Source: a virus
IMG/VR virus record: IMGVR_UViG_3300030202_002357
Location: 647-27,200 of that record
Length of the DNA: 26,554 nt
Direction: 5' to 3' (one strand)
The position numbers were made by a program, and so were the translations under genes. The notes under the pieces are model-generated. The model ran no database searches, was not told the DNA's origin, and worked only from the letters and a program-made list of their open reading frames with translations. How positions within the stretch are numbered: the stretch's first letter is position 1; each line of letters opens with the position of its first letter. Below are positions 1,101 to 20,700 of the stretch, in pieces.

Positions 1101-1172
1101 AACGTACGTTCATCCTTCGGGACGCATAACATCTGATCATGGAACGGGGATCAGGTACTTCGGAGATTTATC
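1101..1172 (+). promoter_or_regulatory. Downstream-peptide type glutamine riboswitch (glutamine-II class)
   Basis: This 74-base gap between psbA and a short ORF folds as a compact three-stem element. The outer stem P1 pairs GTAC 1104-1107 with GTAC 1155-1158. P2 is TCC 1113-1115, a TTCG loop, and GGA 1120-1122. P3 is CTGATC 1133-1138 with GATCAG 1149-1154. The stretch GTTCATCC..GGACGCATAAC resembles what I recall of the conserved core of the cyanobacterial and cyanophage Downstream-peptide motif, which binds L-glutamine and sits upstream of short ORFs. A GGAG Shine-Dalgarno (1162-1165) lies just past P1, seven bases before the ATG, so control of translation initiation is plausible. No U-tract follows, which argues against an intrinsic attenuator. 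The class assignment is from memory of the motif, not from a covariance search. Confidence 0.78.
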
Positions 1173-1283
1173 ATGCCTACAGTTGAACTACGTCAACGGG
1201 TACGTGAACAGCAGCAAGCCGAAAAGGTCTTGAAACTGAAGTATCGTGGCGTTTCTTACCTTAAAAAATATACTAAAAATTAA
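1173..1283 (+). CDS. 36-residue YRG peptide, DUF4278-like, under the riboswitch
   Basis: A short ORF starts at ATG 1173 behind a GGAG ribosome binding site and ends at TAA 1281-1283, which overlaps the next ATG as TAATG. The peptide is basic, with a Gln/Glu/Arg-rich N-terminal helix and the C-terminal motif LKYRGVSYLKK. That motif resembles the YRG(V)xY signature of small cyanobacterial DUF4278 proteins. Its place directly behind a glutamine-type riboswitch is the arrangement for which the Downstream-peptide motif is named. The biochemical function is unknown. By analogy with glutamine-riboswitch control of a glutamine synthetase inactivating factor in cyanobacteria, it could adjust host nitrogen metabolism, but that is inference and no glutamine synthetase inactivating factor signature is visible. 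Confidence 0.75.
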   Translation: MPTVELRQRVREQQQAEKVLKLKYRGVSYLKKYTKN

Positions 1284-3364: not shown

Positions 3365-3473
3365 ACCTAATCCTCCCACTGAGGAGATGGTAAAGAAAGC
3401 TCAATTTATCGATAAAACTTACGTTTGGAAACATGCTCGTGTTCGATCTGGAGACGGACGGTCTCCTGAATGA
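3327..3473 (+). CDS. Possible 48-residue overlapping protein
   Basis: An ORF starting at ATG 3327 covers the 68-base gap between primase-helicase and the polymerase exonuclease ORF, and overlaps both neighbours in a different frame. The peptide is hydrophilic and basic in its second half (EEMVKKAQFIDKTYVWKHAR near residues 19-38). The middle third lies outside any other gene. Almost every other gap in this genome is filled by a small ORF, which favours it being real. Against it are the short length, the overlap at both ends and the lack of a clear Shine-Dalgarno. No function is recognised. Confidence 0.4.
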   Translation: MNQNLSTHKQIFKPNPPTEEMVKKAQFIDKTYVWKHARVRSGDGRSPE

Positions 3474-3948
3474 TGTTACCTGTATTCACTGTATGGTCAT
3501 CTATGATTCTGAAACTGATGAAACATACGTCTACAACGATCAAGGCGACCAAGAACCAATTGTCCGTGGCGTGCAGTTACTTGAAGAAGCAAAGGTTATT
3601 TGTGGACACAATGTAATTCAATACGATCTACCAGTACTAGAAAAAATCTATCCATGGTTTAACCCTGCTGGATTTGTTTTAGATACATTACTTTTGTCTC
3701 GCTTGTATCATACAAATATGATGGAAGTGGATAAAAAATTAGACATAAGTTATATGGCATCTCAATTACGAGGTAGACATTCGCTTGAAGCATACGGTTA
3801 CAGATTAGGTGAATACAAAGGAGCATTTGGCAAAACAAGTGACTGGAAACACTGGTCACAAGATATGCAGGATTACTGCGTACAAGATGTCAACGTTACT
3901 AAAAAATTATGCGACCACTTCCACAAATACCTGAGTGGGTCCTACTAG
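3433..3948 (+). CDS. DNA polymerase, 3'-5' proofreading exonuclease part (T7 gp5 N-terminal domain)
   Basis: This 171-residue ORF corresponds to the proofreading domain of T7 gp5 (about the first 200 residues). The DnaQ-type exonuclease motifs are complete: Exo I FDLETDG with Asp5 and Glu7 (same numbers as T7), Exo II CGHNVIQYDLPVL with Asp65, and Exo III YCVQD with Tyr148 and Asp152. HSLEAYGYRLGEYKG and VQDVNVTKKL also match T7 closely. The frame ends at TAG 3946, where T7 gp5 would continue into the polymerase domain; the polymerase continues in the -1 frame, which is open from 3903. One extra C at 3930-3931 would join the two as KYPEWVLLEHD. It may be a truly separate subunit, a frameshifted product or a sequence error. 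Confidence 0.9.
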   Translation: MLVFDLETDGLLNDVTCIHCMVIYDSETDETYVYNDQGDQEPIVRGVQLLEEAKVICGHNVIQYDLPVLEKIYPWFNPAGFVLDTLLLSRLYHTNMMEVDKKLDISYMASQLRGRHSLEAYGYRLGEYKGAFGKTSDWKHWSQDMQDYCVQDVNVTKKLCDHFHKYLSGSY

Positions 3949-5177
3949 AGCACGATGTTGCTCACATTTTATCTATACAAGAACGGCATGGCTGGCATTT
4001 CAATGAGCGGGCTGCATGGCAACTTGCATCGTCTCTCGAACAAGAACTTCAAGATCTTAAAAAGGTACTTCGCAAGAGATACCCTTACGTCGGAGGAGCT
4101 GAATTCACTCCAAAGCGAGATAACAAAACTAGCGGCTACATCAAAGGTGCAACCTTTACTCGATTAAAAGAAACAAACATCACTTCACGAGATCATATTT
4201 CATGGATATTGCAAACATTTTGTGGTTGGAAGCCGACGCAGTTGACAGCTACTGGGAAACCTATCATCGACGAAGTTGTGCTGACGGAGATTGGATCTCC
4301 GATTGCTACGGAGTTCGCGAGATGTTTGACGGTAATGAAAATGCTTGGGATGTTATCGAACGGCGTGAACGCATGGCTCAGGCTTGTTACGACTGCTAGT
4401 CGGATACATCACCATTGTTCAGTCACTACAGCTACGCATAGAGCGAGCCATCGAAACCCAAATTTAGCTCAAGTACCTAGTAACAATGAATTTAGAAAAT
4501 TATTCCAAGCATCCCCTGGTCAAATTATGGTGGGTGCCGATCTTAGTGGGATTGAGCTACGGATGCTCGCCCATTACCTTGGAAAATTTAGTCCCGAGTT
4601 CGGAGATACCCTTCTTACCGGAGACATCCATCAAGTCAATGCCGATAAAGTCGGTGTTACAAGACGAGCTATCAAAACAATTACCTACGCCTGGTGCTAT
4701 GGGGCTGGAGATGAAAAAATAGGTCATAGTTTTGACCCACAATTATCATCAGCTAAAGCTAAAAAGCGAGGCAAAGAAATACGAGCGGCATTCGTAGATG
4801 CTATCCCTGGCATGTCTGAATTATTAGATAGTATTAACATAGCAGCTAAACGTGGTTACATCAAATCTATTGATGGCCGCAAGATTCAGCTTGATAGTCC
4901 ACATAAGTCACTCAACTATTTGCTTCAGTCAGGAGCCGGTGTAGTTGCAAAGAGGTGGCTCATTATCAATCAAAACAACATTACACAACTAAAGCTGTGT
5001 GCATCACAGCTGGCATTTATACATGACGAATTACAATTTGAATGCAACCCTGAACACTCAGGAGATTTATCAACATCCTTGGTATATTCAGCAATCGCTG
5101 CTGGAGAATACTACGGACTCAGAGTCCCAATCGCCGCAGAAGCTAAAGTCGGAAGGGACTGGTCCGAGGTACATTAA
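3909..5177 (+). CDS. DNA polymerase, family A polymerase domain (T7 gp5 C-terminal part)
   Basis: This is the catalytic domain of the replicative polymerase. The 422-residue ORF carries motif A (GADLSGIELR, Asp211), motif B / O-helix (RRAIKTITYAWCYG, Lys256 and Tyr260) and motif C (FIHDELQ, Asp373, Glu374). Other T7-like stretches are GDIHQVN, GAGDEKIG, IDGRKI and the C-terminal GRDWSEVH. Tyr260 is at the position of T7 Tyr526 / E. coli Phe762. Only about 30 residues separate GG62-63 from SRDHI 93-97, against about 75 in T7, so the thioredoxin-binding loop is largely absent. The first ATG (3909) lies inside the exonuclease ORF in another frame, with no Shine-Dalgarno. Homology to T7 begins about residue 8 (PEWVLLEHD). 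See the exonuclease entry for the split. Confidence 0.95.
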   Translation: MRPLPQIPEWVLLEHDVAHILSIQERHGWHFNERAAWQLASSLEQELQDLKKVLRKRYPYVGGAEFTPKRDNKTSGYIKGATFTRLKETNITSRDHISWILQTFCGWKPTQLTATGKPIIDEVVLTEIGSPIATEFARCLTVMKMLGMLSNGVNAWLRLVTTASRIHHHCSVTTATHRASHRNPNLAQVPSNNEFRKLFQASPGQIMVGADLSGIELRMLAHYLGKFSPEFGDTLLTGDIHQVNADKVGVTRRAIKTITYAWCYGAGDEKIGHSFDPQLSSAKAKKRGKEIRAAFVDAIPGMSELLDSINIAAKRGYIKSIDGRKIQLDSPHKSLNYLLQSGAGVVAKRWLIINQNNITQLKLCASQLAFIHDELQFECNPEHSGDLSTSLVYSAIAAGEYYGLRVPIAAEAKVGRDWSEVH

Positions 5178-12266: not shown

Positions 12267-12335
12267 CAGCTTGGGAGGCACCTCAGAGTCGGACCTCCCC
12301 GGCATTGGCATTGGCCCGTACGCGGATACCCTTTG

Positions 12336-12347
12336 CCGTCTAGACGG
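12336..12347. repeat. Perfect 12-bp palindrome CCGTCTAGACGG
   Basis: Exact self-complementary sequence upstream of the capsid gene. In RNA it would give a short CCGU/ACGG stem, and flanking CCC (12329-12331) and GGG (12349-12351) could extend it across an internal loop. It could be a protein-binding dyad or a processed hairpin. Confidence 0.8.
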
Positions 12348-12368
12348 TGGGACAGACCACAAAAATTT

Positions 12369-17769: not shown

Positions 17770-20700
17770 ATGGCACAATTTTATACTAAAGAGCGTTCTG
17801 TTACAGGCGCTAGCCCAAAGATTTATGATGACTCTCAGCGTATTTTAACTGAAGCTGAGAATATTATTGAAAGTATGCGTGCCGTTAGTTCTATCGAAGA
17901 ACAACAGAACGCTACTCTTATCGATAACCTACGCGCTCATAGGCAGCGTGAAAAGGAACTGAATACTCGTAACCATCGAATGCTCATGGACAACATGCAG
18001 CAGGTTGCAGAGGCTCAGCAACGTAAGGATCAGATTGCTCTTGATAATAAAACTTTAAAACGTAAAGAGGATATAGCGAAAGAACAGCGCACGATGGAGA
18101 CGTTAGCAACGTTGTCTCAAGTTGCTGGTAAAGCTGCGGGGGCATTGGTTGAACAAGGCCTTGCCAAGGCTGATGAGCAGATGAAGGTTGATCTTGCTAA
18201 TCAACATAAAATTCAACAAATTCTTCCTCAAGCTAAAGATGCTACAGGTCTTGCTGTAACTTCTCAACTTGCAATTGATGATCAAGTTGAAATGGCTGAG
18301 CTTACAACCGCTTCCATGGCTGAAAGAGCAGGCAAGGAAATGAATTTTGTAGCTAGGATGTTTGTCAGGCCTGATCGTTTAGAACGAAGGGCTGTACAGT
18401 TACAAGCAAGTGATCTGGCGACTAGAGTTGAAAGTGGACTTTTAGAAGATATTATTCGTCAAGATCCTACTAGAACTATTTCCTATGTTTTTAATGGGGA
18501 ACTGAAAGAAGTACCTTTAAGCGATATGCTCGAAGGTAAAATTCAATCCTCAGAAGAACTAAATAGATTTTATACTACTCTTAATGACGAAGAATTTTCT
18601 AGTCTAAAAGAAGGTAGGGATCCGGCTTTATTTCTTAAAGCAGATGAACAAACACGTAATTATATTAATACACGTGCATTGCAATACGGTGATAAACTTA
18701 CTCGTAATGCGATTGAAAGGTTTAACACAGTTAAAATTCAAACTGTTCTGCTAGGTGATTCACCAGAACAAGTAGCAAAAAATGCAGTTCAATATATCAC
18801 TGAGTCTGGTATGAACCCGACAGTAGGACATGGAAATGCTTTGACTAATATTACTAACTCAATCTTGCCTAATACAAAAAGTCCTGTTGCTTTTGTTGAA
18901 GCAATAGGAGAACTTGAGTTTGGTCATATGCCTGATGTCAAAATTAAAAAAACACCATTTTTTAAGAAACTTCAACGCGAAGCCTTACGTCTACAACAAC
19001 AAAAATCTGCTGACTATTTAAGAGAGCAAGAGTCTATTGGGGATAAAGTTGGTCTGGAACGATTTAAAGCGGCTTTTAGTGATAATCAACTTTTTGATGC
19101 TGCTGAATATAATGCATCTTACAATGATGTCCGTGAAAGAGAAAGAAATGGTACCTTAACTTTTGAGGCAGCGAGGAGAGCTGAGCTTGTACTTGATTCT
19201 AAATATGACGCATACTCTGACTCTAAACTTACTAAGGAATTAATTTCAGATTTAAGCGAACAGCAAGAACTTAGCCAGCCTGTATTAGATAGTGCATTTC
19301 AAGCTGGTCATATTAATAGAGAGACCTATGACTCAGAGACTGAAAAACTTAAAGCACTAGATACAGTAAAACTTCCTAATGGTCTTAGGTATTCTCAAAA
19401 AACTATTAGGTCACAAGCTTTAGTTATTGCTTCCAACGCGGTTGGACGTTTCGATGTTTCAGGACAACCTAAACATTTTTCTGCACAAGCTGCTGCTGAT
19501 CTGGCTGCTGATATGTACATACAAAAGTTTAATACATATGCTGAAGAATTTACCCCTGATGTTGCTGCTAAAAAAGCTTGGGCTGATATTCAAAGTGAGA
19601 TGCTTAGAGAAGAGGGTATGTTCTTTGTTGATAGAACAGATGACACACGTGGAGCAATTTATTCACAATTAACTACTGGCGACCATACTAAAGCCATGAG
19701 AGTACCTACCAGAAGTGTTAACACTGCTAATCAAGTAGGGCTTTCTCTTCGTGGTGATGGTGCTGGCTTATTAGATGTCAAGGAATGGACAGAGCTTGAT
19801 TCGAGTATGCCATCCTATGCTGCACAAATCAATAGTGGTAAACCGATTAAGCTAACAGCCTTTGATCAAGAAGCATTTGATGCTGCAGGTATTCCTGCAT
19901 ATGAAGCACTTAATCGTCGGTTCAAAGTTCTTGGTATTGATGCTGAGGCTAAAGAAGGCTCATTTGATATTCTTAGGAAAAATGTTTCTGAGATATCTCC
20001 TGAACTGAAGCGAGTTATTAATAGCCCTAAGACTTGGAACAAACTCAGTAGTGTCATTGATCGTTCTCCAAATTTAATGCCTGCTCGGACAGGTACAGAT
20101 GCTACTTATTTTAATAATATGAGTAGTATATTCAAGAAACTTAATCATCCTAACTCTGAATTGATGGCCGCTATTGGGTCAGTTCAAACAGACAACGGTA
20201 GGAACCAACCAAACTTAACTCCACTACAACAAGCTATTCAATTAGCAGAACAATACCCTGGCTATGCTAAATCTATTATTCCTTATGGTCAAATTGCAAG
20301 TACAGATCCCAAAGTTGCAGTTGCCTTGAGTAAATACGCTGATTCTCATACTCCCTTTGCAGGTGCAAGTAAAACAATTGCTCGTCTTTCTTATCGTCTT
20401 GGCCCACAAGATATGCGTTCTGGAGCTAATTTCTTGCAAAGTAGTTTAGGTTTTAGTCCTCAAGGAGCTGCAGTTCTCGCTGGTAATATTCAACAAGAAT
20501 CATCTTGGAATGGTCAACGTGATTGGGGACAGGTTTTGGGAGATGGAACTAGTCGTAATGGAGGTTTAGTATCTTGGGCATCTTGGTCCGATAATCCAGC
20601 ACGCTTAGGTAAAATTGAAAAATATTTAGGTAAGAATATATCTCAAGCAAGTCATTCAGAACAACTGTCGGCTATGCAATGGGAAATGAAAAATTTTTAT

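Follow-up and report, generated by a model that had tools for sequence, protein, structure and literature searches.

A glutamine-II riboswitch and YRG micropeptide gene overlapping endonuclease I in a T7-like cyanophage, and sister phages whose aptamer encloses a gene

Riboswitch and YRG micropeptide behind psbA

The window, i.e. the whole stretch of DNA analysed (26,554 nucleotides), covers 26.5 kb of a viral record that is 27.2 kb long and comes from a T7-like cyanophage; it encodes psbA, endonuclease I, primase-helicase and DNA polymerase, followed by the structural genes. The features from psbA to endonuclease I all lie on the plus strand. The DNA polymerase is present as two overlapping ORFs, exonuclease and polymerase (3433–3948 and 3909–5177); a separate DnaQ-like exonuclease is also annotated in relatives.

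The phage psbA gene for the photosystem II D1 protein (19–1098; Pfam Photo_RC, 1.2e-86) lies directly upstream of a Glutamine-II riboswitch aptamer (RF01704; 1104–1156), with only 5 nt between the psbA stop codon and the match. Alignment by cmscan covered the full length of the model (positions 1–60) with 51.3 bits and an E-value of 6.9e-10, the gathering cut-off being 33 bits, and thus confirmed the original prediction of a glutamine riboswitch; RF01704 was the sole Rfam family matched in the whole window. The three stems of that prediction were found as elements, but they correspond to P1, P2 and a pseudoknot and not to three nested stems. The P1 hairpin (1113–1122) consists of the strands TCC and GGA (1113–1115/1120–1122) closed by a UUCG loop, the same loop as in the crystal structure (PMC6698751), and represents the plain form of an element that carries a nested gene at this site in sister phages. 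The eight pairs of P2 (1131–1138/1149–1156; element 1131–1156) enclose the 3' pseudoknot strand GAACG (1142–1146) together with G1147, and the 5' pseudoknot strand CGTTC (1107–1111) equals C1–C5 of the crystal structure (PMC6698751).

In that structure, the pseudoknot comprises C1–G40, G2–C39, U3–A38, U4–A37, C5–G36 and C19–G41, with an A33–G42 pair and a triple formed by G18 (PMC6698751). All of these pseudoknot and ligand-site nucleotides are present in the window, where the equivalents are C1107–G1146, G1108–C1145, T1109–A1144, T1110–A1143, C1111–G1142, C1125–G1147 (read from the sequence as an extra pair besides CGTTC/GAACG), A1139/G1148 and G1124. Given the identical ligand-site nucleotides, the window element would be expected to bind L-glutamine. 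Across the phage members (279 loci with 96 distinct P2 sequences), the covariation seen at P2 pairs 2–7 was reached by none of 2000 shuffles.

A Shine-Dalgarno sequence, GGAG (1162–1165; anti-Shine-Dalgarno duplex energy −6.6 kcal/mol), precedes the ATG at 1173 of a 36-residue ORF (1173–1283; MPTVELRQRVREQQQAEKVLKLKYRGVSYLKKYTKN) with a single DUF4278-type YRGxxY motif, both as originally predicted. The only Pfam match of the peptide is to the C-terminal part of DUF4278 (PF14105, profile positions 37–57 only), at 17.8 bits and therefore below the gathering threshold of 25.3, whereas 18 of 21 phage relatives matched the family at E ≤ 0.1 (best 4.9e-7) in the shared YRG motif region. The suspected DUF4278 affiliation thus holds for most of the relatives, and the window product may be regarded as a DUF4278-type YRG peptide without being filed as a full member. 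AlphaFold predicted only a helix, with the YRG end uncertain, and gave no insight into the peptide.

A pattern scan of IMG/VR for the plain riboswitch gave at least 120 contigs, or 125 loci once the window and four phages known by name are added; among the matches listed, the YRG peptide follows straight after the riboswitch in 121 of them, and the remaining four run off the end of their contigs. Podovirus records (n = 18) contained a full-length RF01704 match above the cut-off in 14 cases; S-SBP1 scores on the 3' half of the aptamer only, and no match was obtained in S-B28, DSL-LC07 and 7B11-B. In T7-like cyanophages the cassette usually separates scaffold/psbA from the major capsid gene, and the model phage P-SSP7 possesses an unannotated 17-residue copy (MKVTFVYRGVAYTRVIG) in the interval from psbA to the capsid gene. 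Phage YRG peptides vary from 13 to about 50 residues, and in the host loci of Prochlorococcus and Synechococcus a YRG ORF was found in 115 of 120, mostly of 55–65 residues with three YRG-type repeats. As far as could be found, the near-universal occurrence of the pair in T7-like cyanophages, as it appears from these scans, and peptides of as few as 13 residues are new. Sub-threshold Glutamine-II matches were seen in three records of T4-like cyanophages, at 29–30 bits in S-SM2 (186778–186827) and S-BM1 (91131–91180), and one contig of a Porticoccaceae MAG, perhaps a binned phage contig, has the riboswitch with a YRS instead of a YRG peptide (L239).

In 201 sequences, the first tyrosine, the arginine, the glycine and the second tyrosine of Y-R-G-x-x-Y are invariant while the codons for arginine and glycine vary, and pN/pS of the ORF is 0.60 in frame against 1.2–1.3 out of frame. 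Since the peptide also follows every uncut plain locus, the ORF is not a product of chance, and, as judged from sequence comparison, the riboswitch–YRG pair is maintained by selection. The occurrence of the same pair in hosts might suggest a degenerate, host-derived module carried along with psbA and functionless in the phage, but such a passenger is scarcely credible in view of the P2 covariation in phages, the purifying selection on YRG and the presence of the riboswitch in most of the named podoviruses.

The closeness to psbA, with the riboswitch beginning about 12 nt past the psbA stop in many relatives and still nearer in the window, would also agree with an RNA structure whose chief role is to form the 3' end of the psbA mRNA or to direct its processing. 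This is very improbable, since riboswitch–YRG pairs occur apart from psbA or in its absence (S-TIP28, MedDCM-S28-C3 and several IMG/VR loci) and YRG is found in every uncut plain locus listed. The tie to psbA drawn earlier accordingly stands as adjacency but not as an essential link, considering the pairs without psbA, the occasional extra gene in between and the capsid gene as the usual next gene. The extra gene, seen in L128, L129 (and L024), is an ORF of about 70 codons separating psbA from the riboswitch; its product belongs to PHROG_961 and is probably membrane-spanning.

Overlap with endonuclease I and the proposed control

In the group of phages to which the window belongs, the cassette precedes endonuclease I and not the capsid gene. 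The YRG ORF ends in a TAATG stop/start overlap (1281–1285) with a T7-type endonuclease I (gp3; 1283–1636; Pfam Phage_endo_I, 1.5e-38) that lacks its own Shine-Dalgarno sequence (energy 0), an arrangement on which the original prediction was silent. Overlap was found in all 23 distinct YRG–endonuclease I loci, the YRG stop being located at +1 relative to the endonuclease ATG (TAATG) in 4 and at +38 in 19, and a gap between the two ORFs in none. The Shine-Dalgarno energy of the endonuclease is 0 kcal/mol in 23/23 of these loci and averages −3.2 where YRG is absent (54 loci; p = 3e-10), a comparison that overstates independence and a p-value that ignores kinship, the 23 loci being related. Because endonuclease I overlaps the end of ssb in ordinary relatives, it habitually follows an upstream cistron, and the cassette has replaced ssb as the leading one. 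A single origin of this location was considered and rejected: on the psbA tree the endonuclease-type loci are scattered (9 changes for 14 tips), pointing to several moves or to psbA recombination. The YRG–endonuclease I overlap is, from the genomes and literature covered, apparently new.

At the usual, capsid-side site, the next gene begins 137–1306 nt after the YRG stop, behind a conserved leader of its own. This leader, which separates the major capsid gene from the YRG stop, contains a GGGAGG...CCTCCC hairpin and GCCGTCTAGACGGTGGGATAGACCACA (223 loci), with CCGTCTAGACGG in 168 of the 223; the window retains it at 12335–12352 although its riboswitch cassette is located elsewhere, and no Rfam family matched it there. 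Direct control of the capsid gene by the riboswitch was therefore judged unlikely, the gene keeping its own leader even in the window phage.

According to PMC6316151 and PMC6698751, type 2 glutamine switches are linked to short DUF4278 ORFs and are ON switches, as measured for a Prochlorococcus member. For the window it is proposed that psbA, the riboswitch and the 36-residue YRG gene probably share one transcript, that plentiful L-glutamine would stabilise the pseudoknot so that the ribosome-binding site of YRG is then used, and that ribosomes finishing the YRG ORF may re-initiate at the overlapping endonuclease I start. With no ribosome site of its own, the nuclease would obey the same glutamine signal; the overlap of the YRG stop with its start and the missing Shine-Dalgarno sequence in 23/23 loci make it probable that glutamine gates the nuclease through the micropeptide gene. 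The most likely targets or competitors of the peptide itself would be the DUF4278 nitrogen-control proteins of the host. Free-energy folding of 102 loci without the pseudoknot gave no clear switch to an alternative fold hiding the Shine-Dalgarno sequence, which was unpaired with a probability of 0.25 when free and 0.27 when the pseudoknot strands were held out; in the window, a forced-pseudoknot fold even reduced its accessibility, nested folding models being poor at handling pseudoknots.

Taken as a whole, the explanation that the riboswitch governs the YRG micropeptide and, through the overlap, endonuclease I is considered the likely one. Control of the micropeptide alone, the overlap being incidental compact packing, is rather unlikely, yet it has several points in its favour: the distant capsid-side gene with its own leader indicates that the ancestral output was the peptide alone, endonuclease I overlaps ssb elsewhere too, and TAATG-type overlaps are common in phages. 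Against incidental packing stand the uniform lack of a Shine-Dalgarno sequence and of any gap between the ORFs in the 23 loci. A leader-peptide model, in which YRG translation or ribosome pausing regulates and the product is functionless, could draw on the shortness of some peptides (13 residues) and on the endonuclease overlap in this group, but is improbable: the same motif is conserved before quite different genes at variable distances, selection acts on the residues while the arginine and glycine codons are free to vary, the host versions are longer and have three repeats, and host DUF4278 proteins are reported as separate genes (PMC6316151).

If joint control of micropeptide and nuclease is correct, the virus reads the nitrogen state of its host and responds with a micropeptide that is widespread in the commonest podoviruses of the ocean, P-SSP7 among them; in one group, this reading would also be tied to a nuclease that, by analogy with T7, degrades host DNA.

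Sister phages with a gene inside the aptamer

In five relatives (L165, L167, L197, L204 and L205), psbA and endonuclease I are separated by two aptamer halves whose P1 strands flank an ORF of 54 codons, another feature absent from the original prediction. Scans for such inserts yielded 108 contigs at 130–160 nt, 91 at 161–191 nt and one at 99–129 nt, and the nested form, with PHROG_628 in the P1 loop, amounts to 154 distinct loci from 199 contigs (L165, L197, L204, L335, L346–L451 and L456–L547) and occurs in the isolate S-SBP1 (MT424636, about 18978–19178). S-SBP1, which infects Synechococcus WH7803, has the nested form as gp32 together with an unannotated YRG ORF. An intact nested ORF of 43–62 codons, as a rule 53–62, is present in 153 of the 154 distinct cores. 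In most loci its start codon ATG is within or next to the 5' P1 strand, and its last codons, GAC GCA and the stop, coincide with the GACGCAT(GA/AA) that is conserved in the aptamer; a subgroup (e.g. L470 and L518) has the ORF entirely inside the loop. Cmscan reported none of the five loci named first (0/5), and standard Rfam searches would seem to miss nested aptamers as full-length matches.

All 29 nested representatives matched PHROG_628, a family that T4-like cyanophages also carry as a gene by itself. The 54-codon set has a pN/pS of 0.24 in frame against 1.2–1.8 out of frame. The protein is confidently predicted as a helical hairpin (AlphaFold, pLDDT 93); no Pfam family, no solved relative by sequence and no significant fold match in the PDB were found for it, and its viral matches are unnamed cyanophage proteins. 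Across the nested gene, P1 is kept by compensatory changes: there are 56 distinct strand pairs (e.g. TCTTTT/AAAAGA, TCCTTT/AAAGGA and TCGTAT/ATACGA), and at positions 3–6 the observed pairing was reached by 0/5000 shuffles, a test that ignores kinship, although the variety of pair types would be hard to explain otherwise. Nested forms were found in 0 of 300 host genomes, which is weak evidence as the search pattern was the phage-type GACGCAT that host aptamers mostly lack. At L202 (4811–4875), the P1 of the riboswitch resembles what a deletion would leave behind of the nested gene (ATGTTTGACATAACATAGACGC), which suggests that the gene can be lost again.

An aptamer divided in the linker can still be put together in vitro from its two separate halves (PMC6698751), and a gene-sized P1 loop is plausible for this reason. 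A ribosome starting or ending in the P1 strands would block their closing, and a closed aptamer would bury the nested start; this leads to a model of the cyanophage Glutamine-II locus as a two-output switch, nested gene versus YRG, plus the nuclease in endonuclease I-type phages. At low glutamine, P1 would be open and the PHROG_628 hairpin gene translated, its ribosomes keeping the aptamer apart. At high glutamine, P1 and the pseudoknot would close, the nested start region would be buried in many members, and the YRG peptide would be turned on, as would the host-DNA nuclease in endonuclease I-type phages. While the gene plainly lies within the aptamer loop, mutual exclusion of the two outputs is put forward tentatively, as a possibility somewhat short of likely. 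The sister loci thus present a conserved gene lodged in a ligand-binding RNA, for which no earlier description was found in the literature covered, subscription papers lying outside it.

Relation to known systems

Earlier work has established this class of riboswitch, the ligand that it binds and, in marine cyanobacteria, its association with short ORFs of the DUF4278 type, and glutamine riboswitches have been reported in marine phages, namely T4-like cyanophages and Melnitz (PMC9602691, PMC9004378). The switch of Melnitz is of the glnA type (type 1) and located at a tmRNA gene, whereas that of the window, a T7-like phage, is of type 2 and accompanied by a YRG micropeptide. Glutamine-II (RF01704, also Downstream-peptide or type 2 glutamine) resembles the window element in aptamer sequence, P1, P2, pseudoknot and ligand-site nucleotides, as well as in the short DUF4278-like ORF downstream. 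It differs in that the window copy is inside a phage operon behind psbA and its cassette overlaps endonuclease I, and the phage ORF has one YRG repeat where the host ORFs have three; in sister phages, but not in the window, the P1 loop also houses a gene.

According to PMC6316151, host DUF4278 proteins under Glutamine-II control (e.g. Prochlorococcus PMM1846) have the same YRGxxY motif and the same riboswitch class, and IF17, with its DUF4278-bearing N-terminus, has the motif in common with the phage peptide. The phage version differs from both in its length of 13–50 residues and its single motif, and the Pfam search of the window peptide showed no IF7-like region of the kind that inhibits glutamine synthetase. 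The two-piece Glutamine-II aptamer assembled in vitro is similar to the nested forms in that the halves need not be one chain, but it was cut in the linker after A20, while the natural nested forms are interrupted in the P1 loop (PMC6698751).
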